Positions 4,045 to 53,903 of a stretch of DNA of 53,903 nucleotides are shown one piece after another; position 1 is the stretch's first letter, and each line of letters begins with the position of its first letter. The DNA lies in the IMG/VR virus record IMGVR_UViG_3300028284_000009, positions 1 through 53,903 of that record. One strand, written 5' to 3'. Under the pieces are notes generated by a model. That model was not told where the DNA came from and made no database searches. It saw only the letters and a list, made by a program, of their open reading frames with translations. The DNA comes from a virus. The position numbers and the translations under genes were made by a program.

Positions 4045-4080
4045 TATATTATCTACGAGTGATCGTATTATTTTTGTAAA
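4045..4080 (-). promoter_or_regulatory. early promoter-like element, copy 5
   Basis: A full match to both blocks (TTTACAAA and GATAATATATATG) with a 10-nt spacer. It lies 22 nt before the start at 4022 and overlaps the last codons of the DnaA-like gene. Confidence 0.65.
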
Positions 4081-4454
4081 AAGTAACTCTGCTGAATAAA
4101 CTCTAGTTGCTCTTCGTTAAGATCGCTCCAGTTCACACCGTACTCGATGCTAGCTATAGTGTTTAACGCTTTGATACCGATAGCTCGCCTGCCGGAGTTG
4201 TTAATCTGCTGCTTGATGCTTGTGTATAGCACTTGATCTGTCACTGGAAATACTTTATGTACACCATGAAGAACAGTTGCATAGTTTTTATTTAGCTCGT
4301 TACCGATAGTTTCGAAAGTATCGTTAGTATATTCTCGACACAGCTTATAAAATAAAGCTCGAGCATCTGAGTGATAACGTTTTCTACCTTCAATACTTAA
4401 ATTGAAGCCAACATTGTCTTCTACTATATCTCTTATTTGCTTTATGTTAATCAT
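4068..4454 (-). CDS. DnaA domain-IV-like DNA-binding protein
   Basis: A 128-aa protein whose residues 30-70 match the DnaA C-terminal helix-turn-helix: R32-ALFYKLCREYTNDTFETIG then NKNYATVLHGVHKV. This lines up with the DnaA signature in which an aspartate, a histidine, a serine/threonine and VLHA precede a basic helix. Here the central DHST is replaced by NYAT. There is no AAA+ ATPase domain, so it cannot open DNA as full DnaA does. It could bind an origin, recruit or block host DnaA, or act as a regulator. It is co-transcribed with the gene at 4447 (8-nt overlap). Confidence 0.6.
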   Translation of the reverse strand: MINIKQIRDIVEDNVGFNLSIEGRKRYHSDARALFYKLCREYTNDTFETIGNELNKNYATVLHGVHKVFPVTDQVLYTSIKQQINNSGRRAIGIKALNTIASIEYGVNWSDLNEEQLEFIQQSYFLQK

Positions 4455-15747: not shown

Positions 15748-18700
15748 ATGGCTACGGTAGCAGGATCAAAAAGATTATTAGATATATCTGGAAATAATAT
15801 ATCCACAGCTGTAAGCTTAGCAGCTTCAGGAACGTTACTTGACGTTAACGGCACCGCTGGAACTTCAGGCCAAGTGCTTAGCTCTACAGGCTCAGGTGTA
15901 GATTGGATTACTAACAATAGTGCTAACTACTACCTTGACGGTATAACTAAGTCAGGCAATACACTTACTTTTAGCGTGCTGGGAGCAGCTAACCAATCAT
16001 ATGCTTTTGGATCAAATGCTTTTACAAGTACTGCTATTCCAACCGTAAACAACGCTACAGTAACAATTAATACAGCTACTGGTTTAGACGGTGCAACAAC
16101 TTTTACTTTAAATCAATCAGCTGATAAAACTATAAGTTTATCTCTAGATTTAAGTGAGTTTGCGGAATCTGGAACATTAATAGCTACAGATCAATTGATA
16201 ACACTAGATGGAAACGCAGAACGTAAAAGCACAATATCTTCCATACCATTAAGTATATTCAACAATAACAGCGGCTGGACTTCTAACACAGGAACTACAA
16301 CACCATCTAATACGCAGACATTTACAAATAAATCTGGTAACATTTCTCAATGGACTAATGACTCTGGGTATGTAACATCTTCAGGTGGTTCAATGTCTAC
16401 TTGGATTTTAAAAGAAGGTAATGGTACTGAAACAAGCACAGTGTCCAATGGAGAAACAGTAACTATTGCACAAGGTACTGGTATACAATCTGAACTTACT
16501 TCTACTTCAAGTGGCGGTACGTTGACTATAACAAACACAGCGCCTAACATTGTTCAGACTACAGTTTCAGGTAACGCAGGATCTGCTACCAAATTATTAA
16601 CCGCAAGAACAATAGCGGGAGTATCTTTTGATGGTACTGCTAACATTTCTCTAAACAACAACGCTATTACTAATGGTGCTGGTTATACAGCTAATACAGG
16701 TGATATTACACAAGTTACAGCAGGTAATGGTCTTACAGGCGGAGGTACATCGGGTGCGGTTACCCTTAATGTTGTTGGCGGCACTGGTATAACTGCCAAC
16801 GCCGATAACATAGCTATAGACGCAACGGTGGCAACCTTAGCTGGAACACAAACATTTACCGGAACAAAAACAATAAATACTCTAAAAATAGGTACAGCTA
16901 ATAAAATTCAATTCGCCAATAACGATTTTATTAGATATGACGACGCTAGTGGCGTTGGTAGATTTCACTTTGATTCTGATGGAGGAACAAATAACTCATC
17001 AGTACAAGCTGCAACTTTTGTAGGGGCTTTAAGCGGTAATGCTGCAACAGCTTCAACTTTACAAACTTCAAGAACAATTGCAGGTGTTTCTTTTAATGGA
17101 TCAGCAAACATATCTTTAAATAATAACGCTATTACTAATGGAGCAGGCTACACCTCAAATACAGGTACAGTAACAGGCGTAACGGCCAGCGCGCCTATAA
17201 CATCTTCTGGAGGAACAGCTCCTAACATTAGTGCAATAGTACCTTCGTCTGGAAGCTGGTGGAACACCGGGGTTGTTTACGTACAGACTGACGGCGTGAT
17301 GGAAGCTGGTAAATACTTTGACATGCATGCATCCAATACTGCAACTTCAGATTTTGACGTTAGACTAACAGCTTCAACAGGTAGTTTAAATGTTTCCGGA
17401 GACCTAGTTATAGGTGGTGGTGATATTACTCTTTCAGGTACTGGTAGAATCCAAGGTGTAGACACAGTAAGTGCTGGAACTGATGCAGCGAATAAGACAT
17501 ACGTTGATAATGCTGTATCAGGTGTAAGTAGTGGTGTAACATCTGTAGCGACTACTAACGGTATTACAGGTGGTACAATAACCTCAACAGGAACACTTCA
17601 AGTAGACTCTACGGTAGTAAGGACATCAGGTGATCAAACTATAGGTGGTATTAAAACATTTTCTACTTATATAGGAATGGAAGCAGATCATTATGTAAAC
17701 TATCGTTTTGAAATGATTGAAAATGCATCTCCTCAATACATATTGCTATGTAGAAATACATCAAGCAATGATATTAATGGTGTTATCCGCATGGACAGAA
17801 CATCAGGAAATTGGCAATCAGCTTCTGTAGAAGTTATAGTATCAGCGGGAAGTGGAGCAATGTATGGAGGTACTTTGCGTACTCTTCAAGTTACACAAAG
17901 TTCAGAAGATTACAGACTAATTTCTTGTACATACAATAGCATTAGTTATATTGCTATCAAATATGCAGGTAATACTTATCCAGAAACATCAGGTGCTTAT
18001 TTTACAGGTCGTGCAAAAATAAGTGCAGGAACACTATTTGAAGTTGTTTCATCAGGAGTTTCAAATGAAGCTTCTTTTGGAGGCACTACCGAGTCTTATA
18101 ATGAAGTAGACAGTTTTGTAGTAAGTGGCGATGCTACTATCTCAGGCGGTGATATTACACTAGGAGGCACAGGAAGAATACAAGGTGTTGATACAGTAAG
18201 TGATAATACAGACGCGGCTAATAAACTATATGTTGATAATGCTGTTTCTGGAGTGCCTCAAGGTACTGTAACAAGCGTTGGTGGAACAGGTACACAAAAT
18301 GGATTAACTCTTACAGGTACAGTTACAAGTTCAGGTGACTTAACACTTGGAGGTAACCTAGCTATTAACAACTCAGATTGGTCAGGTACTGATTTATCAG
18401 TTGCTAATGGTGGAACAGGGTCTAGCTCGGCTTCAGGAGCAAGAACTAATTTAGGTATTGTCAATGATACAGGTATACCAGCTATATTATCAGATGGAAC
18501 AGCACCTAGTTTAAACACGGGTATAAGCGCCACTGAAGTAAGGTCGCTTATCGGAGCAGGTACTTCAAGCACGGTAGGTACTGTAACTGAAGTTACATCT
18601 ACTATTGACGGAGACGCGTTGGGAGTTGCGGTTACAGCTGGAACTACAACACCTGCAGTAAACTTTGATTGGCAAGGTAGTTCAAGTGAATATGTTAATG

Positions 18701-19722
18701 GTGAAGGAACTTTAACATCTTTCCCAAGTATACCTCAAGGTGATATTACCGCTGTTGTCGCAGGAACGGGTATGACAGGCGGAGGTACTTCAGGCTCTGT
18801 TACACTAGACTGCGATATAACAAACAACAATCAGTTAACAAACGGCGCTGGTTATACTACTTTTACAGCTAATCAAGCTTTAGATACTACTTCTAACCCA
18901 TCTTTTAATGATCTTTATATAGCTGATCAAATATTACACACAGGAGATACTAATACCTATATGCAGTTTCACGCTAATGATCAATGGAGAGTTGTAACTG
19001 CTGGTGCAGAAAGATTAGAAGTTAACAACACTCAAGTTACAGTAGCTAATAACTTACAAGTAGGTGGGTCTATATACGCTTCTCAGTATATTTACCACAC
19101 AGGAGACACTAATACATATATGAGGTTTCCTTCTAATGACACTATTAGTTGGAATACGGCTGGAACAGAGAGAATGCGTATAAATTCCTCTGGTAACGTC
19201 GGGATTGGAACTACTAACCCAGGTTCATACAAGTTAAAAGTTGCTGGTGTTTCAGACACTCAGGGGCTTGTTGTAGGGTATCAAGATTTGCTTCTGTATG
19301 ATAACAATACTTATTCTCCTGAGTTCAAGATGACTAACAATACACATTCTTTAGGTGTTGATTACCAAAATAATGAGACGTTAAGGTTCATTACAAGGTC
19401 AGGTGTAACTACAGTTCCTATTACTTTTCAAATGAGAGCAGGTACTATAACAGCTGTTAACTTCATACTGTCTTCAGATGAAAGAAAAAAGACAAAAATA
19501 GAAAACCTCAAAAGTAGCACAGTAGACGTACAATGGAAGTCTTTCGAAATGAAAGATAACGAAGGTGAATATAGAACAGGTGTAATAGCTCAAGAACTTG
19601 AAGAAAACCATCCTGAGTTTGTTAATACTGATGAAGAAGGGTATAAGTCTGTCAAGTATATTGATTTATTAATTGCTAAAATAGCCGAGTTAGAAGCTAG
19701 GTTAGAAAAACTAGAGAAATAA
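15748..19722 (+). CDS. giant tail fibre with S74-type chaperone end
   Basis: A 1324-aa protein made of repeats: TRTIAGVSF(D/N)G(T/S)ANISLNNNAITNGAGYT occurs twice (near residues 288 and 444), as do GGDITL.GTGRIQGVDTVS units and one GNVGIGTTNP. The last 83 residues (from about 1242: SSDERKKTKIENL...) match the intramolecular chaperone of the endosialidase type (peptidase S74), which helps trimer folding and then cuts itself off. The final 20 residues are a coiled coil. It is the main receptor-binding candidate. Confidence 0.75.
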   Translation: MATVAGSKRLLDISGNNISTAVSLAASGTLLDVNGTAGTSGQVLSSTGSGVDWITNNSANYYLDGITKSGNTLTFSVLGAANQSYAFGSNAFTSTAIPTVNNATVTINTATGLDGATTFTLNQSADKTISLSLDLSEFAESGTLIATDQLITLDGNAERKSTISSIPLSIFNNNSGWTSNTGTTTPSNTQTFTNKSGNISQWTNDSGYVTSSGGSMSTWILKEGNGTETSTVSNGETVTIAQGTGIQSELTSTSSGGTLTITNTAPNIVQTTVSGNAGSATKLLTARTIAGVSFDGTANISLNNNAITNGAGYTANTGDITQVTAGNGLTGGGTSGAVTLNVVGGTGITANADNIAIDATVATLAGTQTFTGTKTINTLKIGTANKIQFANNDFIRYDDASGVGRFHFDSDGGTNNSSVQAATFVGALSGNAATASTLQTSRTIAGVSFNGSANISLNNNAITNGAGYTSNTGTVTGVTASAPITSSGGTAPNISAIVPSSGSWWNTGVVYVQTDGVMEAGKYFDMHASNTATSDFDVRLTASTGSLNVSGDLVIGGGDITLSGTGRIQGVDTVSAGTDAANKTYVDNAVSGVSSGVTSVATTNGITGGTITSTGTLQVDSTVVRTSGDQTIGGIKTFSTYIGMEADHYVNYRFEMIENASPQYILLCRNTSSNDINGVIRMDRTSGNWQSASVEVIVSAGSGAMYGGTLRTLQVTQSSEDYRLISCTYNSISYIAIKYAGNTYPETSGAYFTGRAKISAGTLFEVVSSGVSNEASFGGTTESYNEVDSFVVSGDATISGGDITLGGTGRIQGVDTVSDNTDAANKLYVDNAVSGVPQGTVTSVGGTGTQNGLTLTGTVTSSGDLTLGGNLAINNSDWSGTDLSVANGGTGSSSASGARTNLGIVNDTGIPAILSDGTAPSLNTGISATEVRSLIGAGTSSTVGTVTEVTSTIDGDALGVAVTAGTTTPAVNFDWQGSSSEYVNGEGTLTSFPSIPQGDITAVVAGTGMTGGGTSGSVTLDCDITNNNQLTNGAGYTTFTANQALDTTSNPSFNDLYIADQILHTGDTNTYMQFHANDQWRVVTAGAERLEVNNTQVTVANNLQVGGSIYASQYIYHTGDTNTYMRFPSNDTISWNTAGTERMRINSSGNVGIGTTNPGSYKLKVAGVSDTQGLVVGYQDLLLYDNNTYSPEFKMTNNTHSLGVDYQNNETLRFITRSGVTTVPITFQMRAGTITAVNFILSSDERKKTKIENLKSSTVDVQWKSFEMKDNEGEYRTGVIAQELEENHPEFVNTDEEGYKSVKYIDLLIAKIAELEARLEKLEK

Positions 19723-19923: not shown

Positions 19924-20559
19924 ATGAATATACCAAAAAAAATACACCAAGTATGGATTGGACCAAGGGTTCTTCCTGAAAAGTATGTAGAAATGACTGC
20001 CGCTATGCAAGCCATGCATCCCGAGTGGGAATATAAGATGTGGACACACGATGAGATATTTAATGACAGGTATGCTGATGATATATATTTGCAAGCGTAT
20101 ATACAAGACCCAGATACTTTTAAGTGGGCTTTTATAACAGATAGAATAAAGCTTTTACTATTAAGAGACTTTGGAGGTGTTTACGTGGATGTAGACGCAA
20201 AGTATGTGAAGTCATTTGACTTGGTTATGGACAAACTAGAAGAAAAGCATACTTTTTTTGCAGGTATGAAAACATACGATGTTCAGTCTTCATTGATAGA
20301 GTGCGCTGTGTATGGTGCAGCTCCAAACAGCAGGTTAATAAACTTGTGTCTAGACTTCTATTCAGATACACGATGGGCTCATGGGTGTATGGATTTTAGT
20401 AACGTTATAGTACATAACCTAGAGGATGATGCTCTACTGTTAAATAGTAAATATTTCTACAGCTTTGAAGAGTTTGATCAAACTATCGTGTTGCACGAAC
20501 CAGAAGACATAAGACTTTATTCTCACTCAGACGAAAACAATGCTAAAGAAGAATACTAA
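19924..20559 (+). CDS. GT32-like glycosyltransferase
   Basis: A 211-aa protein. The N-terminus IPKKIHQVWIG (3-13) is the hallmark of the sugar-transferase family with a DxD motif (GT32, Och1-like). Residues 68-91 (WAFITDRIKLLLLRDFGGVYVDVD) hold the conserved R-x-L-Y/G-G-x-Y-x-D-x-D region, with D89 and D91 binding the metal-sugar nucleotide. The length fits one catalytic domain. It sits between fibre and chaperone genes, so it may glycosylate virion fibres or host surface glycans; the target is unknown. Confidence 0.8.
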   Translation: MNIPKKIHQVWIGPRVLPEKYVEMTAAMQAMHPEWEYKMWTHDEIFNDRYADDIYLQAYIQDPDTFKWAFITDRIKLLLLRDFGGVYVDVDAKYVKSFDLVMDKLEEKHTFFAGMKTYDVQSSLIECAVYGAAPNSRLINLCLDFYSDTRWAHGCMDFSNVIVHNLEDDALLLNSKYFYSFEEFDQTIVLHEPEDIRLYSHSDENNAKEEY

Positions 20560-21027: not shown

Positions 21028-22587
21028 ATGTCAGACAAGATAGTAAAGAACCTTAATTTTGGTGAAGAAGCCAGAAATAATGTATTTAAAGGAATAGAAA
21101 AGCTTACATATGCTGTTAGCTCTACTTTAGGAGCTAGTGGTAAATGTGTGATGCTAGAAGATGGGTCAGGAAGACCAGTAATTACAAAAGATGGTGTAAC
21201 AGTTGCAGATTCTATTGTATTACTAGATCCAGTTGAAAACATGGGAGCCACCCTATTAAAAGAAGCGGCTAGGAAAACTGTTAGAGAAGCCGGTGACGGA
21301 ACTACAACAGCTACAGTATTAGCACATGCAATTTTAAAAGAAGCTTATAAGGTTTCAAACAAAACAAACTCCAGAGAGTTAAAAGATGGTATTGTATCAG
21401 CTACAGAAAAAGTAGTTAAATACTTGCAAAAGAATTCTACTAGTGTCAAGGGTGACATGATTGATCAGATAGCTACTATATCTACTAATAACGACCAAGA
21501 GTTAGGTAAGTTAATAGCAGACGCTTTTAGAGCTGTAGATAATACAGGTATAGTTATGATGGAGACATCATCATCTGGAAAAACAGAAGTAGAAGTTGTT
21601 GATGGTATACAATATGACAAGGGACTTAAAAACTCTCATTTCATTACTAACCAACAAAATAAATCAGCTGAACTAGACAATCCTTTAGTTTTGCTAATTG
21701 AATCTCCTGTTGAGTCGATAAGACAAATACAATCAGTGTTAGAGTATGTAATAAAAAACAACAAACCTCTGCTCATCATAGGTGATTTAGAGCAAGGTGT
21801 TTTATCAGCTCTAGCAATGAATAAAAACAAAGGAAACATTAAGGTCAATGTTATTGACGCGCCTACCTTTGGAATTAGCAAAAAAGAGGTGTTAGATGAT
21901 CTAGCTTTATTAACTGGAGCTACCATCATTAACGAAGACTTAGGTGATGATATGGATTTGATCCAGATCGAGCACTTAGGAACATGCTTAAGAAGTATTA
22001 CTACACATAGTGAAACTGTTTTGAAAGTTGGAGAACCAACTGAAGATGTTTTAAGTATTATAAAAGACTTAAAAGAAGAATTGCTTGTAGAAAAGCAGTC
22101 TTATAAGATTATTAAGTTAGAAACAAGATTAGCTAGATTATCAGCTAAAATAGCTATTGTTAAAGTTGGTGCTAACTCTGAGATAGAGTTGCAAGAAAAG
22201 AACGATAGAGTAGAAGATGCGATTTGTGCTACTAAAGCAGCTATTAAAGAAGGTATTGTCCCAGGTGGTGGTATTGCTTTATTAAATGCTTCAATGTATA
22301 TCAAGCCGATGAACCAAGGAGAAGAAGTGCTGCTAGAGGCAATTAGAGCGCCTTTTAAGACAATATTAGATAACGCAGGTATAACAGACATAAAAATTCC
22401 CAAGAGCAAAGGTAAAGGCCTTAATGTGATTACAGGAAAAACTGTTACAATGGTAAAGTCTGGTATTATCGATCCTTTATTAGTTACAAAGTGTGCATTG
22501 CAAAATGCTTCATCAGTTGCTACTACAATATTATCAACCGATTGTGTAATCAATAATTTAAGAGTTGGAGATGAGAGCAATAGGTAA
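21028..22587 (+). CDS. groEL: phage chaperonin GroEL
   Basis: A 519-aa homologue of the 60-kDa chaperonin. The ATPase motif is intact: EAGDGTTTATVLA (D90), ITKDGVTVAD, VPGGGIALL (G413-415) and the VEDAICATKAAIKEG segment with the catalytic Asp before it. TLGPKG is changed to TLGASG (33-38), near the phosphate loop. It ends GDESNR without the GGM tail that lines the bacterial ring cavity, so it is shorter than the usual 540-548. It should form a folding chamber with the GroES partner just behind it (16-nt overlap). It probably folds capsid or other virion proteins. Confidence 0.9.
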   Translation: MSDKIVKNLNFGEEARNNVFKGIEKLTYAVSSTLGASGKCVMLEDGSGRPVITKDGVTVADSIVLLDPVENMGATLLKEAARKTVREAGDGTTTATVLAHAILKEAYKVSNKTNSRELKDGIVSATEKVVKYLQKNSTSVKGDMIDQIATISTNNDQELGKLIADAFRAVDNTGIVMMETSSSGKTEVEVVDGIQYDKGLKNSHFITNQQNKSAELDNPLVLLIESPVESIRQIQSVLEYVIKNNKPLLIIGDLEQGVLSALAMNKNKGNIKVNVIDAPTFGISKKEVLDDLALLTGATIINEDLGDDMDLIQIEHLGTCLRSITTHSETVLKVGEPTEDVLSIIKDLKEELLVEKQSYKIIKLETRLARLSAKIAIVKVGANSEIELQEKNDRVEDAICATKAAIKEGIVPGGGIALLNASMYIKPMNQGEEVLLEAIRAPFKTILDNAGITDIKIPKSKGKGLNVITGKTVTMVKSGIIDPLLVTKCALQNASSVATTILSTDCVINNLRVGDESNR

Positions 22588-22831
22588 TAACATAATAATA
22601 GAAAAGCTAAAAGAAGGTACCACCTCTACAAAGGGTGGTCTTTTCTTAGCTGATTCACATAGAGAAGATATTAGATACGTTGAAGGAAAGGTTATCTCAG
22701 TTGGAGATGCTGTGTCTGGAATCGAAGAGAATGATGTTATATATTTTGATAGACATGCTGGTCACAAGATAGAACTTAAAAAAGAAACTTTTCACTTAAT
22801 CAAAATGGGTGACGTAGTTGTAGTTTTATGA
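22571..22831 (+). CDS. groES: phage co-chaperonin GroES
   Basis: 86 aa from ATG at 22571; a TTG six bases up is a weaker start. Family segments: GNNIIIEKLKEG, a mobile loop (TSTKGGLFLADSHRED) in place of the bacterial GGIVL type, GKVISVGD, NDVIYFDRHAGHKIEL, and MGDVVVVL. The mobile loop contains GGLFLAD, which likely caps the phage GroEL. It overlaps groEL by 17 nt and the next gene by four (ATGA), so all three are co-translated. Confidence 0.85.
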   Translation: MRAIGNNIIIEKLKEGTTSTKGGLFLADSHREDIRYVEGKVISVGDAVSGIEENDVIYFDRHAGHKIELKKETFHLIKMGDVVVVL

Positions 22832-26108: not shown

Positions 26109-26336
26109 ATGTCATCTGTTATAAGAAAAATTAGTATAGGTTCTGATTACAAAACTGACGCAATGCATTATGCTGTTGGTCAGTCTGTTTATGGGGGTCA
26201 CGAAATATCTCACATACTACACGACGAATCTGATAACTCTTATAGCGTTCACATTAAGAAAAAAGACGAGGTAATGCCGTGGAAGAAGTTTAATTCTAAC
26301 ATGGCAGTATCTGTCGAATACGATCTAGCGTATTAA
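26109..26336 (+). CDS. conserved marine-phage hypothetical protein
   Basis: A 75-aa beta-rich protein (KISIGSDYKTDAMHYAVGQ, then SHILHDESDNSYSVHIKK). It belongs to a family often seen next to this point in marine phages, of unknown function. Its stop and the next start share a base (TAATG). Confidence 0.55.
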   Translation: MSSVIRKISIGSDYKTDAMHYAVGQSVYGGHEISHILHDESDNSYSVHIKKKDEVMPWKKFNSNMAVSVEYDLAY

Positions 26337-26962
26337 TGCAAAGTTTATTCAGCTTTATTGTAAAGCCTGTAAATAAAAGATATGACAACGAGGTTAAAGT
26401 TGGTAAAAAAACCCTCATAACTAACAGTCGTATAGAATCGTGGAAATCAATTAGTAACGAAGCAATTGTACTTGAGGTACCTAAAGCTTTTACCACTAAG
26501 ATACGTAAAGGTGACACTATAGTGATACATCACAACGTCTTTAGAAGATTCTATGATATTAGAGGCAATCAAAAAGATAGCAGATCAAAATTTATCGATG
26601 ATAAGTTTTTCTGTGATATAGACCAAGTTTATTTATATAAACAAGATGGTAAATGGAACGCTTTTGGAGATCGATGCTTTATAAATCCTATTTTAGATAA
26701 CGACGATTTAACGGCAGATAAAGAAAGAAAGCTTATAGGAATACTGAAATACGGTAATAGTTCCTTAGAAGCTATAGGAATCAATCCTGGTGATCTAGTT
26801 GGTTACACTCCTAATGGTGAGTTTGAATTTGTAATAGATAACGAGAGATTGTACTGTATGAAATCAAATGATATTGTAATTAAATATGAATACGAAGGAA
26901 ACGAAACTAAGTATAATCCAAGCTGGGCAAGCGGCAGTTCAAGAACTGATCAAAGTAGCTAA
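26336..26962 (+). CDS. tandem GroES-like protein
   Basis: A 208-aa protein. Residues 110-186 match GroES along its length: FGDRCFINPI (as in HDRVIVK), LIGILKYG (G-V-L type), INPGDLVGY (KVGDIVIF) and DNERLYCMKSNDIVIKYE (DNEEVLIMSESDILAI). Residues about 23-102 repeat this more weakly: IRKGDTIVIHHN and DDKFFCDIDQVYLYKQ. So it appears to be two fused GroES domains without a clear mobile loop. It may partner the phage GroEL or act alone in assembly. It overlaps the next gene by 77 nt. Confidence 0.6.
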   Translation: MQSLFSFIVKPVNKRYDNEVKVGKKTLITNSRIESWKSISNEAIVLEVPKAFTTKIRKGDTIVIHHNVFRRFYDIRGNQKDSRSKFIDDKFFCDIDQVYLYKQDGKWNAFGDRCFINPILDNDDLTADKERKLIGILKYGNSSLEAIGINPGDLVGYTPNGEFEFVIDNERLYCMKSNDIVIKYEYEGNETKYNPSWASGSSRTDQSS

Positions 26963-27161
26963 AGAAGCAATAGTCGACGGAGGAGAGGATATCTCAGCTG
27001 ATAGACTGAAAAACGCAGCTGCTACAAAAAAGCTTGCTATCTTTGATGCATTTGAAATATTAAAACGTATTGAAGAAGAAGAAGACTTGTTGAACGAAAA
27101 ACCAAAAGAAAAGAAAGAGAAAAAAGCTTTCAGTGGTTTTGCAGAAGGAAGATCTAAGTAA
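26886..27161 (+). CDS. candidate small terminase subunit
   Basis: A 91-aa protein just ahead of the large terminase, sharing one base with its start (TAATG). It is helical, with IIQAGQAAVQELIKVAKEAI (about 9-28) and a Lys/Glu-rich tail. Position, size and composition fit a small terminase, but no helix-turn-helix can be fixed by eye. It begins inside the previous gene in another frame. Confidence 0.45.
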   Translation: MNTKETKLSIIQAGQAAVQELIKVAKEAIVDGGEDISADRLKNAAATKKLAIFDAFEILKRIEEEEDLLNEKPKEKKEKKAFSGFAEGRSK

Positions 27162-29368
27162 TGTATAAGCAGAGTTTATACAGAATAGTACCTAACCATA
27201 TAAAATCTAGCGTCTTAAAGAAAAAGAACAAGCATAAGAAATGGGAGTATGGGTACAACGAAGAACACGACATGGTTGTCATCAGCAAGACTGGTGAAGT
27301 CGGTGAAGTATATGAGATACAAAATCTTAAAATAGCTTTACCTCTAGAAAATGACGTTGTTACTTTTGAGGGAAATAAATGGATGGCTCAGGAATATCCT
27401 AAAGAGCTCAAGGGGATAAAGACCATCTTTGATTGGAAGAATTATAAAGAAGACTTTAAAGAAGAATGGTATGAATTTATTGATCAAGAGTTTAAAAGAA
27501 GAGAACAAGGTTTTTGGTTTGTTAACAAGGACAAGCCTACTTATATTACTGGTACTCATTTTGTCTACTTGCAGTACTCCAAGATTGATATTGGGAAGCC
27601 AGACTTTAGAGAATCAAACAGATTATTCTTCATATTCTGGGAAGCTTGCAAAGCAGACGGCCGTTGTTATGGAATGTCATATCTCAAGAACAGAAGGTCA
27701 GGTTTTTCGTTCATGGCTTCAGCTGAGACCGTTAACATGGCAACAATATCGTCCGACGCACGGTTTGGAATTCTGTCCAAATCTGGAGCCGATGCAAAGA
27801 AAATGTTCACAGATAAAGTGGTACCTATCAGCGTTAATTACCCGTTCTTCTTCAAACCGATACAAGACGGTATGGACAGGCCCAAAACGGAGATTGCCTA
27901 TCGTGTCCCCGCGTCAAAGCTTACAAGAAGATCCATCACCGAAACCGTTAGGCCCGAGAGTCTTGACGGTCTTGATACCACCGTCGATTGGAAAAACACC
28001 GGTGATAACGCATACGATGGAGAAAAACTAAGACTACTAGTACACGACGAGAGTGGAAAGTGGGAAAGACCGAACAACATATTAAATAACTGGCGAGTTA
28101 CAAAAACGTGTTTAAGATTAGGTTCTAGAATTATTGGAAAGTGTATGATGGGTTCGACCTCAAACGCTTTAGACAAAGGTGGTGCTAATTTTAAAAAACT
28201 ATATAACAATTCAGATGTCACTAAAAGAAACAGCAACGGGCAGACTAGCTCAGGACTATATTCTTTGTTCATACCTATGGAATGGAATTACGAAGGATAC
28301 ATTGATTCTTATGGATTTCCTGTATTCGAAAACCCGAAAGAAAAAGTAGTAGATGCTTTTGGTGATGAAATAAAAATAGGTGTATTAGAGTACTGGAAAA
28401 ATGAAGTAGAAGGATTAAAAGATGACCAAGATGGTTTAAACGAATTCTACAGACAATTTCCTAGAACTACTGAACACGCTTTTAGAGATGAAGCTAAAGA
28501 ATCTTTATTTAATCTAACTAAAATATACGAGCAAATAGATCACAATGCTGATCTCAATAACATAGCTTCTGTTACTATTGGTAGTTTCCAATGGGAGAAC
28601 GGAGTTAGAGATTCTAAAGTTATGTTTATGCCAAATAAGGACGGTAACTTCAGAATATCTTGGGTTCCACCTTATAATCTACAGAATCGTGTAATAGTAA
28701 AGAATGGAACAAAGTATCCAGGTAACGATCACTGTGGAGCATTTGGTTGTGATAGCTATGATATATCAGGCACGGTTGATGGTAGAGGTTCTAATGGATC
28801 TCTTCACGGGTTAACTAAGTTTAGTATGGAAGACGTGCCACCTAATCATTTCTTTTTAGAATATATAGCTAGACCTCAGACGGCTGAGATATTTTTTGAA
28901 GATGTTTTAATGGCTTGCGTATTTTACGGAATGCCTTTGTTATGCGAAAACAATAAACCTAGATTATTATATCATTTCAAAAGAAGAGGTTATAGAGGTT
29001 TTTCAATGAATAGACCTGATAAGGTTTGGAACAAGCTATCTATCACAGAAAAAGACATTGGAGGAATACCTAACTCCAGCGAGGATATCAAGCAAGCGCA
29101 TGCTTCAGCTATTGAAACATATATAAACACAAGCGTTGGCTCTACGGAGGACGGGTTTGGTGATATGTACTTTCAAAGAACGCTAGAAGATTGGGCTAGA
29201 TTCAATATCAACAATAGAACAAAACACGATGCATCTATAAGCTCTGGACTAGCTTTAATGGCTTGCAATAAGAACAGATACATACCAACAGCTAAGAAGG
29301 AATACAAGGCAATAAACTTAGGTATAAAAAAATATGATAACACCGGTTCATCATCAAAAATTATTTAA
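27161..29368 (+). CDS. terL: terminase large subunit, crAss-like
   Basis: A 735-aa DNA-packaging ATPase and nuclease. The ATP loop is a variant: YLKNRRSGFSF (174-184), where a P-loop normally has GKS/T; the same variant is recalled in crAss-like terminases. Walker B is LRLLVHDE (290-297), coupling motif GST (331-333). The nuclease part has CDSYD (529-533) and an acidic residue E595. Segment GDAKK-like GADAKKMFTDKVVP and NNILNNWRVTKTCLRLGS are typical of this family. It pumps DNA into the head through the portal. The part around 27655-28020 has GC of about 50 % against 37 % nearby. Confidence 0.85.
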   Translation: MYKQSLYRIVPNHIKSSVLKKKNKHKKWEYGYNEEHDMVVISKTGEVGEVYEIQNLKIALPLENDVVTFEGNKWMAQEYPKELKGIKTIFDWKNYKEDFKEEWYEFIDQEFKRREQGFWFVNKDKPTYITGTHFVYLQYSKIDIGKPDFRESNRLFFIFWEACKADGRCYGMSYLKNRRSGFSFMASAETVNMATISSDARFGILSKSGADAKKMFTDKVVPISVNYPFFFKPIQDGMDRPKTEIAYRVPASKLTRRSITETVRPESLDGLDTTVDWKNTGDNAYDGEKLRLLVHDESGKWERPNNILNNWRVTKTCLRLGSRIIGKCMMGSTSNALDKGGANFKKLYNNSDVTKRNSNGQTSSGLYSLFIPMEWNYEGYIDSYGFPVFENPKEKVVDAFGDEIKIGVLEYWKNEVEGLKDDQDGLNEFYRQFPRTTEHAFRDEAKESLFNLTKIYEQIDHNADLNNIASVTIGSFQWENGVRDSKVMFMPNKDGNFRISWVPPYNLQNRVIVKNGTKYPGNDHCGAFGCDSYDISGTVDGRGSNGSLHGLTKFSMEDVPPNHFFLEYIARPQTAEIFFEDVLMACVFYGMPLLCENNKPRLLYHFKRRGYRGFSMNRPDKVWNKLSITEKDIGGIPNSSEDIKQAHASAIETYINTSVGSTEDGFGDMYFQRTLEDWARFNINNRTKHDASISSGLALMACNKNRYIPTAKKEYKAINLGIKKYDNTGSSSKII

Positions 29369-29371
29369 TAA

Positions 29372-31777
29372 ATGAAGATACAGACTAACACTAATAGTTC
29401 ATTTCCTAACCAAGTGGTTAGCGACGAAGTAAAAGCTAGCCTAGAGTACGGTGAGCAAGTCGCTAGAGCGATTGAAGGAGAATGGTTTCAAGAAGGTAGG
29501 TCTGGTAACAGATACGTTCAAAGTTATAGTAATTTTCATCAGTTGAGATTATACGCTCGTGGAGAGCAAAGTGTTCAAAAATATAAAGATGAATTATCCA
29601 TAAACGGTGATTTATCTTATCTTAATTTAGACTGGACACCTGTTCCAGTTATCTCTAAGTTCGTAGATATAGTAGCTAATGGAATGAGCAACAAATCTTA
29701 CGATATATCAACAGTAGCTCAAGATCCTTTTTCAATAAAAAATAAAACTGATTACGCTAAAGCTATAGAAAGCGACATGGCTAATAGACAAGCTTTGGCT
29801 GATATACAAGAGGTTACGGGCAAGGATATGTCGTTGACTCAAAACATGGTAGAGTTACCGGATTCAAAAGATGAGTTGGATATTCACATGCAAATGTCTT
29901 TTAAGCAGAATGTTGAAATTGCTGAAGAAGAAGTTATAAACAACGTATTAGAGTACAACAAGTACAATCAAACTAAAAAGAGATTAGCTACTGATTTAAC
30001 AGTGCTTGGTATTGCCGCTTGTAAGACAAGGTTTGATAAAACAGAAGGTATAAAAATTGATTATGTTGATCCAGCTTATATGGTTTACTCATATACTGAG
30101 GACCCTAACTTTGAAGACGTATACTATGTTGGAGAAGTAAAAGCTATAACAATACCAGAACTTAAGAAACAGTTTCCAGACCTTCCTGAAGAAGAATTAG
30201 AGAAGATACAGAAAATGCCAGGTAATTCCCAGTTTGTAACTGGTTGGGGTAATTACGATGAAAACACTGTTCAAGTAATGTACTTTGAGTATAAAACTTA
30301 TATGAACCAAGTTTTTAAGATAAAGAAAACTGATCAAGGTCTAGAGAAAACATTAGAAAAAACAGACGAATTCAATCCACCACCTAATGATAACTTTGAT
30401 AGAGTATATAGGACCATAGAGGTTTTGTACACTGGCGCAAAAGTATTAGGTAACAATTTCATGTTAGAGTGGAAGATGGCTGAGAACATGACTAGGCCAA
30501 TTGCTGATACTACGAAGGTAGAAATGAATTACTGCATTACAGCTCCTAAAATGTATAAAGGACGTATAGAGTCTATAGTTAGTAGGATAACTGGATTTGC
30601 TGATATGATTCAGCTTACCCACTTGAAACTTCAACAGGTAATGTCTAGGATAGTTCCTGACGGTGTTTTCTTAGATATGGATGGTTTAGCTGAAGTTGAT
30701 TTAGGTAACGGAACTAATTACAATCCAGCAGAAGCTCTTAATATGTATTTTCAAACTGGATCTGTGGTTGGTAGATCATTGACTCAAGAAGGAGGTATGA
30801 ACGCAGGTAAGGTGCCTATTCAAGAACTATCAACATCTTCAGGCCAAGCTAAGATACAAAGTTTAATTGGTACTTATCAGTACTACTTACAGATGATTCG
30901 TGACGTAACTGGATTAAACGAAGCTAGAGATGGAAGTGCTCCAGATAAAGATGCTTTAGTTGGATTGCAAAAGCTAGCGGTAAACGCTTCTAACACAGCC
31001 ACTAAGCACTTAATGGATTCGTTGTTATACATCACACTTAGAATGTGTGAAAACATAAGTCTAAAGGTAGCTGATATATTACAGAATCCACTTACCGAGA
31101 ACTCGTTAACAAACTCTATTAGTAAATTTAATAAAGAGACATTGATAGAGCTTAGAAATCTACAGCTGCATGATTTTGGTATATTTTTAGAAATGGAACC
31201 AGAGCAAGAGGAGAAAGCTTTACTAGAACAAAACGTTCAAATGGCTTTACAAACAGGTGCCATCGCTTTGTCAGATGCGATTGATATCAGAGAAATAAAG
31301 AACACTAAGCTAGCTAACCAGTTTTTGAAACTTAGACAACGTCAGAAAATAGAAAGAGAACAAGCAGCTCAGCAGCAAAACATACAGGCTCAAGCGCAGG
31401 CTAATGCTGAATCCGCTGAAAAAGCAGCTATGTTTGAAGTGCAAAAGCAACAAGCTTTAACTCAAGAGAAAGTTAGTATAGAGCAAGCTAAGTCTCAATT
31501 CGAGATACAAAGAATGCAAACGGAAGCTCAAATCAAAAGAGAGTTAATGGCTGAAGAATTTGGATATCAAATGCAGCTAGCGCAGGCTAGGATACAAGCA
31601 GAGTCTTCTAAAGATAAAGAAATTGAAGATAGAAAAGATAAAAGAGTAAAAATACAAGGAACACAGCAATCAGAGCTAATAGACCAAAGACAAAATGATC
31701 TATTACCAAAAAACTTTGAATCCGCTGGAAACGATAATTTAGATGGGTTTGGATTAGAACAATTTGGGCCTAGCTAG
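29372..31777 (+). CDS. portal protein
   Basis: An 801-aa protein three bases after terL. The N-terminal YARGEQSVQKYKDELS then LNLDWTPVPVISKFVD matches portal proteins of crAss-like and other marine podoviruses. The C-terminal 130 residues are Gln/Ala/Glu-rich coiled coil (about 645-765), the barrel or scaffold-contact region. It forms the 12-subunit ring at one vertex for DNA entry. The size agrees with the family (about 800). Confidence 0.75.
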   Translation: MKIQTNTNSSFPNQVVSDEVKASLEYGEQVARAIEGEWFQEGRSGNRYVQSYSNFHQLRLYARGEQSVQKYKDELSINGDLSYLNLDWTPVPVISKFVDIVANGMSNKSYDISTVAQDPFSIKNKTDYAKAIESDMANRQALADIQEVTGKDMSLTQNMVELPDSKDELDIHMQMSFKQNVEIAEEEVINNVLEYNKYNQTKKRLATDLTVLGIAACKTRFDKTEGIKIDYVDPAYMVYSYTEDPNFEDVYYVGEVKAITIPELKKQFPDLPEEELEKIQKMPGNSQFVTGWGNYDENTVQVMYFEYKTYMNQVFKIKKTDQGLEKTLEKTDEFNPPPNDNFDRVYRTIEVLYTGAKVLGNNFMLEWKMAENMTRPIADTTKVEMNYCITAPKMYKGRIESIVSRITGFADMIQLTHLKLQQVMSRIVPDGVFLDMDGLAEVDLGNGTNYNPAEALNMYFQTGSVVGRSLTQEGGMNAGKVPIQELSTSSGQAKIQSLIGTYQYYLQMIRDVTGLNEARDGSAPDKDALVGLQKLAVNASNTATKHLMDSLLYITLRMCENISLKVADILQNPLTENSLTNSISKFNKETLIELRNLQLHDFGIFLEMEPEQEEKALLEQNVQMALQTGAIALSDAIDIREIKNTKLANQFLKLRQRQKIEREQAAQQQNIQAQAQANAESAEKAAMFEVQKQQALTQEKVSIEQAKSQFEIQRMQTEAQIKRELMAEEFGYQMQLAQARIQAESSKDKEIEDRKDKRVKIQGTQQSELIDQRQNDLLPKNFESAGNDNLDGFGLEQFGPS

Positions 31778-32952: not shown

Positions 32953-34410
32953 ATGGCAGTAACACCAACATTCGGTTCAATTAAGCCGAGTCAAAAACAA
33001 CAATTATTAGAATCTAACTACCTTTCTTTCAACGGAGGATCAGGAGATGGAGATTCAAACTCATTTGCACAACAGTACTTACCTGAGATCTACGAACAAG
33101 AAGTAGAGCGTTACGGAAACAGAACTTTATCTGGATTCTTACGCATGGTTGGAGCTGAAATGCCAATGTCTTCTGATCAAGTAATTTGGTCTGAACAAAA
33201 TAGATTACACGTAGCTTACAATGACGTTTCTACAACAGCAGTAGCGAATGAATTAACTTTCGTAGTTGGTGGAACTGGAAAAGACTTTGTAGAGAATGTT
33301 ATTTCTAAAAATCAAACTATCGTAATTTTAGATCCTGCTGGAATTGAGATTAAAGCTTTAGTTATTGAGTCTTCTCAAACTGCATCTTTAGCAACTTTAT
33401 TAGTAGCTCCTTATACAGCTGCTGATTTAACTGGCTTTGCAGCTTCTGGATTGAAGATCTTTGTATACGGTTCTGAATATGACAAAGGAGTATCTGTTAC
33501 CAACTCTACTGGAGCTGGAGATATTTCAGGTTACAAAACAGTAAACCCTTCTTTCACACAATTCTCTAACTCGCCTATTATTATTAGAAACAAATTTGTT
33601 GTATCTGGTTCTGACATGGCACAGATTGGATGGGTTGAAGTGGCTACAGAAGATGGAACTGGAGGATACTTATGGTATTTGAAAGCTGAATCTGAAACTA
33701 GATTACGTTTTGAAGACTATTTAGAAATGGCTGTAGTAGAAGGAGAATTAGCTACTGGAGCAGCTGCTTCTAGTGTTAAAGGAACCCAAGGTTTATTTGC
33801 TGCTATCAAAGATAGAGGTAATACAAACGTAGGATTTACTGCTGCAGGTGGTTTAGCTACTTTTGACGAGATCTTGAAAAACTTAGATACACAAGGAGCG
33901 ATTGAAGAAAATATGTTATTCTTGAACAGACAAACATCTTTAGACTTTGATGATATGCTAGCTGGTGTAGGTGCTGCTTCAGGCGGTGTTTATGCAGGTG
34001 GTAGTTCTTATGGAGTATTTGAAAACTCTGAAGATATGGCGTTGAACTTAGGTTTCTCTGGTTTCAGACGTGGATCTTACGACTTTTATAAGACTGACTG
34101 GAAATACTTAAACGATGCATCAACTCGTGGAGCAATCCAAGGAGCTACAGCTAGTGTTGAAGGTGTTTTAGTTCCTGCTGGAACTTCTACTGTTTATGAT
34201 CAAATCTTAGGAACTAACATCAGACGTCCATTCTTGCACGTTAGATATAGAGCTTCTCAAGCTGATGATAGAAGAATGAAGTCTTGGTTAACTGGTTCTG
34301 CCGGTGGAGCAGCGTCTTCTGACTTAGATGCAATGGAAGTAAACTTCTTATCTGAAAGATGTTTATGTGTACAAGCAGCTAACAACTTCGTATTATTTCA
34401 AGGAGTATAA
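32953..34410 (+). CDS. major capsid protein
   Basis: A 485-aa protein in the standard place after the scaffold. It is rich in Gly, Ala, Ser and Thr with little Cys and a balanced charge, and codon choice is unusually biased (GGA, GCT, TCT), as in highly expressed genes. N-terminal segment FGSIKPSQKQQLLESNYL, later LPEIYEQEVERYGNRT, and IRNKFVVSGSDMAQIGW resemble crAss-like capsids. It is expected to have the HK97 fold. It is followed by a strong RNA hairpin (34425-34451). Confidence 0.75.
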   Translation: MAVTPTFGSIKPSQKQQLLESNYLSFNGGSGDGDSNSFAQQYLPEIYEQEVERYGNRTLSGFLRMVGAEMPMSSDQVIWSEQNRLHVAYNDVSTTAVANELTFVVGGTGKDFVENVISKNQTIVILDPAGIEIKALVIESSQTASLATLLVAPYTAADLTGFAASGLKIFVYGSEYDKGVSVTNSTGAGDISGYKTVNPSFTQFSNSPIIIRNKFVVSGSDMAQIGWVEVATEDGTGGYLWYLKAESETRLRFEDYLEMAVVEGELATGAAASSVKGTQGLFAAIKDRGNTNVGFTAAGGLATFDEILKNLDTQGAIEENMLFLNRQTSLDFDDMLAGVGAASGGVYAGGSSYGVFENSEDMALNLGFSGFRRGSYDFYKTDWKYLNDASTRGAIQGATASVEGVLVPAGTSTVYDQILGTNIRRPFLHVRYRASQADDRRMKSWLTGSAGGAASSDLDAMEVNFLSERCLCVQAANNFVLFQGV

Positions 34411-53538: not shown

Positions 53539-53903
53539 CTAGCCGTCACACGCTAGACAATCTTCACTCATTGCTTGTTGTGCAATATCTCCACGTAGAA
53601 CACTTTCAGTTCTTGTGTAGTACAAAGTCTTAACACCTGATTTCCAAGCTTCGTAATGAACTTTGTTCAACCACTTTGGAGTAGCTTCAGAAGGAAAAGC
53701 TAGGTTTAAACTTACTGACTGATCTATATACTGTTGCCTTAAACCAGCTTGGTTTACTAACTCTAACTGATTAATTTCTTTAAAAGTTCTAAAAACTTCT
53801 TTAACAGGTATATCATGATTACCAACAAGAACATTATCAAGCTCTTTAATATCTTGCACAGATCCTCCATCAACTAATATTTTATTCCATACATCACTAG
53901 TAT
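53539..53903 (-). CDS. nrdA: ribonucleotide reductase alpha subunit, C-terminal part
   Basis: The frame is open from the window edge to the stop at 53539, about 120 residues. SDVWNKILVDGGSVQ, QSVSLNLAF, KTLYYTRTESVLRGD and the end EDCLACDG match class I alpha subunits; the CxxC at the end is the pair that re-reduces the active site. It makes deoxynucleotides for DNA replication. The 5' part lies beyond the window. It shows that a minus-strand block with nucleotide or replication genes follows. Confidence 0.85.
   Translation of the reverse strand, partial: TSDVWNKILVDGGSVQDIKELDNVLVGNHDIPVKEVFRTFKEINQLELVNQAGLRQQYIDQSVSLNLAFPSEATPKWLNKVHYEAWKSGVKTLYYTRTESVLRGDIAQQAMSEDCLACDG

Follow-up and report, generated by a model that had tools for sequence, protein, structure and literature searches.

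A tandem GroES-like co-chaperonin encoded upstream of the phage terminase, and its possible part in a mixed chaperonin lid

Co-chaperonins with two domains in tandem are known chiefly from plastids, and it is debated why one-domain and two-domain lids exist there together with a seven-fold chaperonin. The Cpn10 and Cpn20 proteins of plants and algae form seven-domain hetero-oligomers (PMC5780408; PMC4242682). In apicomplexan Cpn20 the mobile loop and the roof are kept in both domains (PMC3542282), and the ClpP complex of Chlamydomonas carries CPN11, CPN20 and CPN23 (PMC8889267). Among phage co-chaperonins, T4 gp31 is missing the roof loops, which leaves a wider opening that is thought to help in folding gp23 (PMC6318259).

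The first-pass annotation of the DNA studied here had noted two fused GroES domains accompanied by a GroEL/GroES pair, and knew of no phage in which a system with these three parts had been described. Such sets are in fact annotated already. In RefSeq, Flavobacterium phage elemoF 6-3D has genes named groEL, GroES and, beside the terminase, another 'co-chaperonin GroES', and all three parts (GroEL, a single GroES and a second GroES) also occur in Maribacter phage Panino. Of the papers searched, only that on Panino touches on its GroEL and GroES homologues, in a single clause.

The tandem gene and its surroundings

The source of the DNA is a 53.9-kb record of a marine phage, analysed at its full length and referred to below as the window. 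The open reading frame that had been proposed at 26336..26962 on the + strand is real at exactly these coordinates. It encodes a protein of 208 amino acids which, from the reading frame, its PHROG match, AlphaFold2 and Foldseek and a 56-member alignment, is a tandem (double) GroES-like co-chaperonin. PHROG 13932, whose label is already 'co-chaperonin GroES', matches the protein full length (E 7e-21; protein 1-182, profile 1-197).

The tandem gene lies between two small open reading frames on the same strand. Its start uses the last base of the stop codon of the upstream frame (26109..26336, 75 aa, unknown function; TAATG overlap), and its 3′ end overlaps, in another frame, a 91-aa reading frame at 26886..27161. 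The upstream frame is part of a conserved gene order: in 181 of 187 loci such a frame stops where the tandem gene starts, and in 151 it is 74-75 aa long. Its copies in Manatee and Panino match by tblastn. It has the motif RKISIGxDYKxxAMHYxVGQ and no PHROG or Pfam match, and is a constant partner of the tandem GroES. The 91-aa frame also gave no match to PHROG or Pfam; judged by position only, its product is possibly the small terminase. It leads into the terminase large subunit (TerL; 27161..29368, + strand, phrog_6681, E 1.8e-163), which begins 199 nt past the tandem gene. The portal protein (29372..31777, + strand, phrog_6547, E 6.5e-140) and a virion structural protein (32953..34410, + strand, phrog_13704, E 2.3e-89) lie further downstream; the latter, which to judge from the gene order is probably the major capsid protein, is a candidate client.

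The window also encodes a 519-aa phage GroEL (21028..22587, + strand; PF00118, E 7.6e-59; phrog_5725, E 1.8e-135) and a single GroES of 86 aa counted from its ATG (22571..22831, + strand). The single GroES is identified by a match to PF00166 above the cut-off (E 1.8e-12) and by alignment with E. coli GroES; it has a GGLFL mobile loop and is without a roof hairpin. The tandem gene had been described as lying next to the GroEL/GroES pair and next to the terminase genes. The pair is present but is not adjacent, since it occupies 21028-22831 and ends 3.5 kb upstream; the tandem gene does lie upstream of TerL, but with the 91-aa reading frame between them.

At the C terminus of the tandem protein, residues 186-208 (26891..26959, + strand; ...YNPSWASGSS...) form a tail that is seen only in the window-type lineage; in alignments it is absent from the Manatee, elemo and phi40:1 types. 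The last ~25 codons of the gene (26886-26962) share DNA with the next reading frame in its other frame. Because of this overlap and of its restriction to one lineage, the YNPSWAxSS tail may have arisen by overprinting.

Relatives were gathered from IMG/VR in four scans, which returned 262, 4, 20 and 540 matching stretches; about 830 stretches encoding tandem relatives were thus found, with possible overlap between scans. A terminase follows the tandem gene within 950 nt in 136/136 loci with at least 3 kb of downstream sequence. The position directly upstream of the terminase large subunit, typical of PHROG 13932, is therefore occupied in the window and in every relative with room for it (136/136), and the arrangement of a tandem gene just upstream of the terminase, alongside an ordinary single GroES, is found in hundreds of related phages. 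A scan of genomes gave 29 tandem loci, all in metagenome-assembled genomes (MAGs) that bear a mixture of names; most of the contigs are short. These loci look like binned phage contigs and give no indication that the gene came from a host. A further relative (L227) is found inside CP070801.1, a 1.05-Mb MAG chromosome named Aenigmatarchaeota, and is likely to be chimeric or mis-joined phage sequence.

Four other features of the window were recorded. A glycosyltransferase with a DXD sugar-binding region (19924-20559; PF04488, E 1.8e-6) is encoded between the tail-fibre genes and GroEL, and may modify sugars of the host or virion surface. The end (SSDERKKTKIENL...GVIAQELEE) of a 1324-aa tail-fibre-like protein (15748-19722) looks, by eye, like an endosialidase-type intramolecular chaperone. 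On the - strand, a 128-aa reading frame at 4068-4454 resembles by eye the C-terminal DNA-binding domain of DnaA. Also on the - strand, near the window end, a 106-aa reading frame (53539-53859) matches only the last 64 positions of PF02867 (E 1.5e-14); it is either a gene fragment or the final part of a split gene for the ribonucleotide reductase large chain.

Predicted fold and domains of the tandem protein

An AlphaFold2 model of the whole chain, built on the 56-member alignment, contains two GroES-like barrels (pLDDT 85.6, pTM 0.79). When this model was compared with the PDB by Foldseek, only 7ekq_R and 7ekq_Q scored below 1e-3, followed by GroES chains. These two are chains of 194 and 205 residues from the Chlamydomonas ClpP complex, and their length suggests that they are its tandem subunits. 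TM scores against these chains of about 200 residues were 0.51 (7ekq_R, 207 columns) and 0.47, compared with 0.22-0.30 for single GroES chains. Both halves of the model therefore fit the reference chain simultaneously, placed next to each other in the manner of a ring, and the predicted chain has the two adjacent GroES domains that characterise Cpn20. A role as a ClpP cap, as in 7ekq, was considered; there was no ClpP-related evidence for it. In a viral structure library, the best Foldseek matches include the 200-aa 'Chaperonin cpn10' of Cellulophaga phage phi18:3. Another match to the model (E 6e-11, TM 0.70 by query) is BFVD A0A516L046, a viral protein of 304 aa that may have a third domain.

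When the N-terminal half was modelled alone (pLDDT 88.9), its first 24 Foldseek matches in the PDB were all GroES-family chains, with a top probability of 1.00 and a best E value of 0.018 (none below 1e-3). AlphaFold2 and Foldseek, applied to the whole protein and to the N half, thus uphold the claim that a phage with its own GroEL and GroES also encodes a separate chain with two GroES domains. A half without the GroES barrel, the outcome that the first-pass annotation had named as fatal to its reading, was looked for by the same methods, and the GroES/Cpn10 barrel fold was predicted in both. The proposed bounds shift somewhat: the C-terminal domain spans residues ~104-185 rather than 110-186, and the N-terminal domain ~1-106 rather than 23-102.

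In sequence comparisons the two halves differ in strength. The window protein as a whole falls under the 21.1-bit cut-off of Pfam Cpn10 (PF00166), with 12.9 bits and E 0.11 over residues 145-183. Relatives exceed the cut-off, both as whole proteins (phi18:3, 32.6 bits; G013, 26.0 bits) and in their C halves (phi18:3, 34.7 bits; L087, 27.1 bits; phi40:1 type, 24.1 bits). The C-terminal domain (residues 104-185; 26645..26890, + strand) is supported by these scores and by an hhalign comparison with the single GroES of phages (P 9.2e-8, 94%). The N-terminal domain (residues 1-106; 26336..26653, + strand) is placed by its AlphaFold2 model, its PDB matches and the scores of relatives with an HMM built from single phage GroES proteins; profile-profile comparison of the N half with the single GroES by hhalign was weak (P 1e-3 to 4e-4, 18-36%). 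When the single-GroES HMM was run over 338 reading frames, it hit two domains in each of the tandem proteins of phi18:3, elemo, phi40:1 and the window, and these four ranked directly under the single GroES proteins. As a control, each half was shuffled 1000 times. None of the shuffles reached the scores of the window, L087 or phi18:3 C halves, nor those of the elemo and phi18:3 N halves (16.3 and 15.4 bits); the 6.3 bits of the window N half were reached by 7/1000 and are not significant alone.

The N half might then be a chance β-barrel, with only the C half a true GroES domain. Besides the shuffles that reach the window score, the modest Foldseek E value of 0.018 and the lack of a Pfam Cpn10 match in the N halves of all 56 members speak for this. 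The elemo and phi18:3 N halves nevertheless score above all 1000 shuffles, and every convincing PDB match of the N half is a GroES-family chain, so that we find a chance resemblance scarcely credible. We take both halves to be GroES domains, the N half being the more diverged, on the basis of structure prediction and homology. A search of PDB sequences with the tandem protein or the 56-member profile gave nothing significant (best GroES, 0.026). Profile comparison of the N half with the C half likewise found nothing (P 0.02), and the sequences therefore could not show that one domain had been duplicated to give the tandem protein.

The two domains differ in their loops. Residues 16-35 (26381..26440, + strand) occupy the mobile-loop position of the N domain, with the hydrophobic run L27-I28-T29 and invariant Y16 and N18. 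Position 27 is L, F, I, V or M and position 28 is I, V, A or L in 187/187 aligned relatives; position 29 is V, L, T, I or F, with T in the window and 39 others. The hydrophobic tripeptide of a GroES/Cpn10 mobile loop is thus present at residues 27-29, and is lacking in the C domain of the window protein. Other types also have mobile-loop-like N loops (GGIxFIV in the Manatee type, SGLILN or SGLVLN in the elemo type, KTESGLEL in phi18:3). Residues 11-40, which span this loop, are the low-confidence part of the model, and the segment is presumably flexible. The C domain has a long loop in L087 (ETKMIGSIIVPNSG), phi18:3 and phi40:1-like members, but a short one in the window, Manatee and elemo types. 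The window type therefore departs from the Cpn20 pattern of a mobile loop in both domains, for which the L087 and phi18:3 types have long loops. Since these two types keep long C loops, loss of the second loop was probably secondary, and the window, Manatee and elemo lineages have probably lost one of the two loops per chain. By alignment, neither half of the tandem protein could accommodate the roof hairpin that E. coli GroES has, and nor could the single GroES, in which a gap of 9 residues falls at the site of the E. coli roof; T4 gp31 likewise lacks the roof.

A conserved insertion in the N domain (residues 65-89; 26528..26602, + strand; HHNVFRRFYDIRG...SRSKF) lies at the site of the short NDGYG turn of GroES, against which it was placed by eye from the alignment. 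H65, N67 and G77 are invariant in 187/187 relatives, and position 66 is H or Q. The NDGYG turn of GroES lines the cage, and for this reason the insertion may be a client contact. As it is without a GroES counterpart, it could also mean a different job.

Partners of the tandem protein and its possible roles

Counts of the accompanying genes were made on whole records of at least 48 kb. All 21 such records carrying the tandem protein also encode a separate single GroES, and 18 of the 21 encode a phage GroEL. The records represent about six lineages (window type, Manatee type, Elemovirus, Callevirus, Panino and Pachyviridae), and some are near-identical and not independent. GroEL is absent from the whole records of Cellulophaga phages phi18:3 and phi46:3, which are complete Pachyviridae genomes, and from one 72.8-kb phi40:1-like record. 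In four unrelated Cellulophaga phages no GroES was found. Because the single GroES is present in 21/21 records and GroEL in only 18/21, the invariant unit is the single plus the double GroES, with the chaperonin coming from phage or host.

We lean towards a reading in which the phage double GroES is of the Cpn20 type, forms a mixed lid with the single GroES on phage or host GroEL, and helps to fold a head or packaging protein. From the constant pairing of single and double, with GroEL optional, we infer that the two proteins would build a mixed seven-domain lid, for example of three doubles and one single or of two doubles and three singles. This lid would cap the phage's own GroEL, or that of the host in relatives without one. 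As all the GroES domains are without a roof hairpin, like T4 gp31, the dome would be more open and suited to large phage proteins. The client would be a head or packaging protein folded late in infection, most likely the capsid or portal protein, because the tandem gene lies directly upstream of the terminase and portal genes, in the late block. Several observations count against a mixed lid: the window, Manatee and elemo lineages have a shortened mobile loop in the C domain, the gene for the double is at a distance from that for the single (and in elemo on the other strand), and the insertion at residues 65-89 could point to a different function.

The separation of the genes, compatible with different timing, would fit a different arrangement, in which the single GroES acts at another stage of infection and GroEL is capped by a homo-oligomer of the double alone. 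Such a cap, of which the Cpn20 of Plasmodium and of Arabidopsis is capable, would be made of three or four chains and so have six or eight domains. Cpn20 homo-oligomers do work with seven-fold GroEL, and six- and eight-domain concatamers function (PMC5780408; PMC3542282). The single GroES, however, accompanies the double without exception (21/21), and with the C-domain loop shortened in most lineages such a cap would be left with only three or four loops. We regard it as rather unlikely.

The double might instead have given up GroEL altogether and become a dedicated assembly factor or scaffold, derived from GroES, for terminase, portal or capsid. The invariant site upstream of TerL (136/136), the conserved H65-H/Q66-N67...G77 insertion unlike anything in GroES, and the three phages that keep the double without any phage GroEL are in keeping with this. 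A protein released from GroEL would not be expected to retain hydrophobic residues at positions 27 and 28 of its N loop in 187/187 relatives, to keep a long loop also in the C half in phi18:3 and phi40:1-like members, or to have the single GroES as a constant companion, and we consider this role improbable. An unproven reuse for head assembly, which the first-pass annotation had suggested, fits the invariant site upstream of the terminase.

As the tandem gene lies inside the structural block, its product could also be a minor component of the virion. In the records of phi40:1 and phi18:3, which carry virion-proteome notes, nearby structural genes are labelled as detected by mass spectrometry (MS), whereas the tandem genes gp089 and gp096 are not. 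A non-virion role is therefore more likely, and we attach very little weight to a place in the particle.

Returning to the mixed lid, a fuller version can be put forward only tentatively: flavobacterial phages, independently of plastids, would have evolved a seven-domain lid of the Cpn10/Cpn20 type that is open like gp31, has asymmetric mobile loops, carries an insertion (65-89) adapted to one head protein, and acts on phage or host GroEL. To judge from how widespread the tandem gene is, many phages of flavobacteria may depend on a specialised cage in which a head or packaging protein is folded.

Comparison with described co-chaperonins

The phage proteins already placed in PHROG 13932 (phi18:3 gp096, phi40:1 gp089 and the elemo and Panino homologues) belong to the same family and occupy the same site before the terminase. 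The window double differs from them by divergence only, and their annotation is silent on the tandem nature of the protein and on its pairing with a single GroES. A literature search, in which most subscription journals were not covered, found no paper on the tandem fold, the likeness to Cpn20 or the rule of single plus double. The genes are thus known and annotated in cultured phages, and it is their tandem, Cpn20-like description that was not found in the literature searched. As a widespread counterpart of the plastid proteins that occurs in cultured laboratory phages, the family offers a simple genetic system for the question of why the two kinds of lid coexist, with natural variants in which the phage's own GroEL is present or absent and each chain has one or two mobile loops.

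With T4 gp31 and other single-domain phage co-chaperonins the double shares the co-chaperonin fold, the missing roof loops and a probable role with head proteins. Unlike gp31, which has one domain and uses host GroEL, it has two domains and is accompanied by a single GroES and often by a phage GroEL.

The closest likeness is to chloroplast and apicoplast Cpn20 (Arabidopsis Cpn20, Chlamydomonas CPN20 and CPN23, Plasmodium cpn20), in which two GroES-like domains are likewise joined head to tail in one chain. Chains of Chlamydomonas that are probably of the Cpn20 type (7ekq_R, 7ekq_Q) are the best fold match in the PDB, and, as in plants and algae, where the partner is Cpn10, the phage double coexists with a single-domain co-chaperonin. 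In contrast to Cpn20, with which it has 12-15% identity, it is phage-encoded, has no transit peptide and no roof hairpins, carries the insertion at 65-89, and in most lineages has a shortened C-domain mobile loop. The phage double is likely to have arisen by a fusion independent of that which gave plastid Cpn20.
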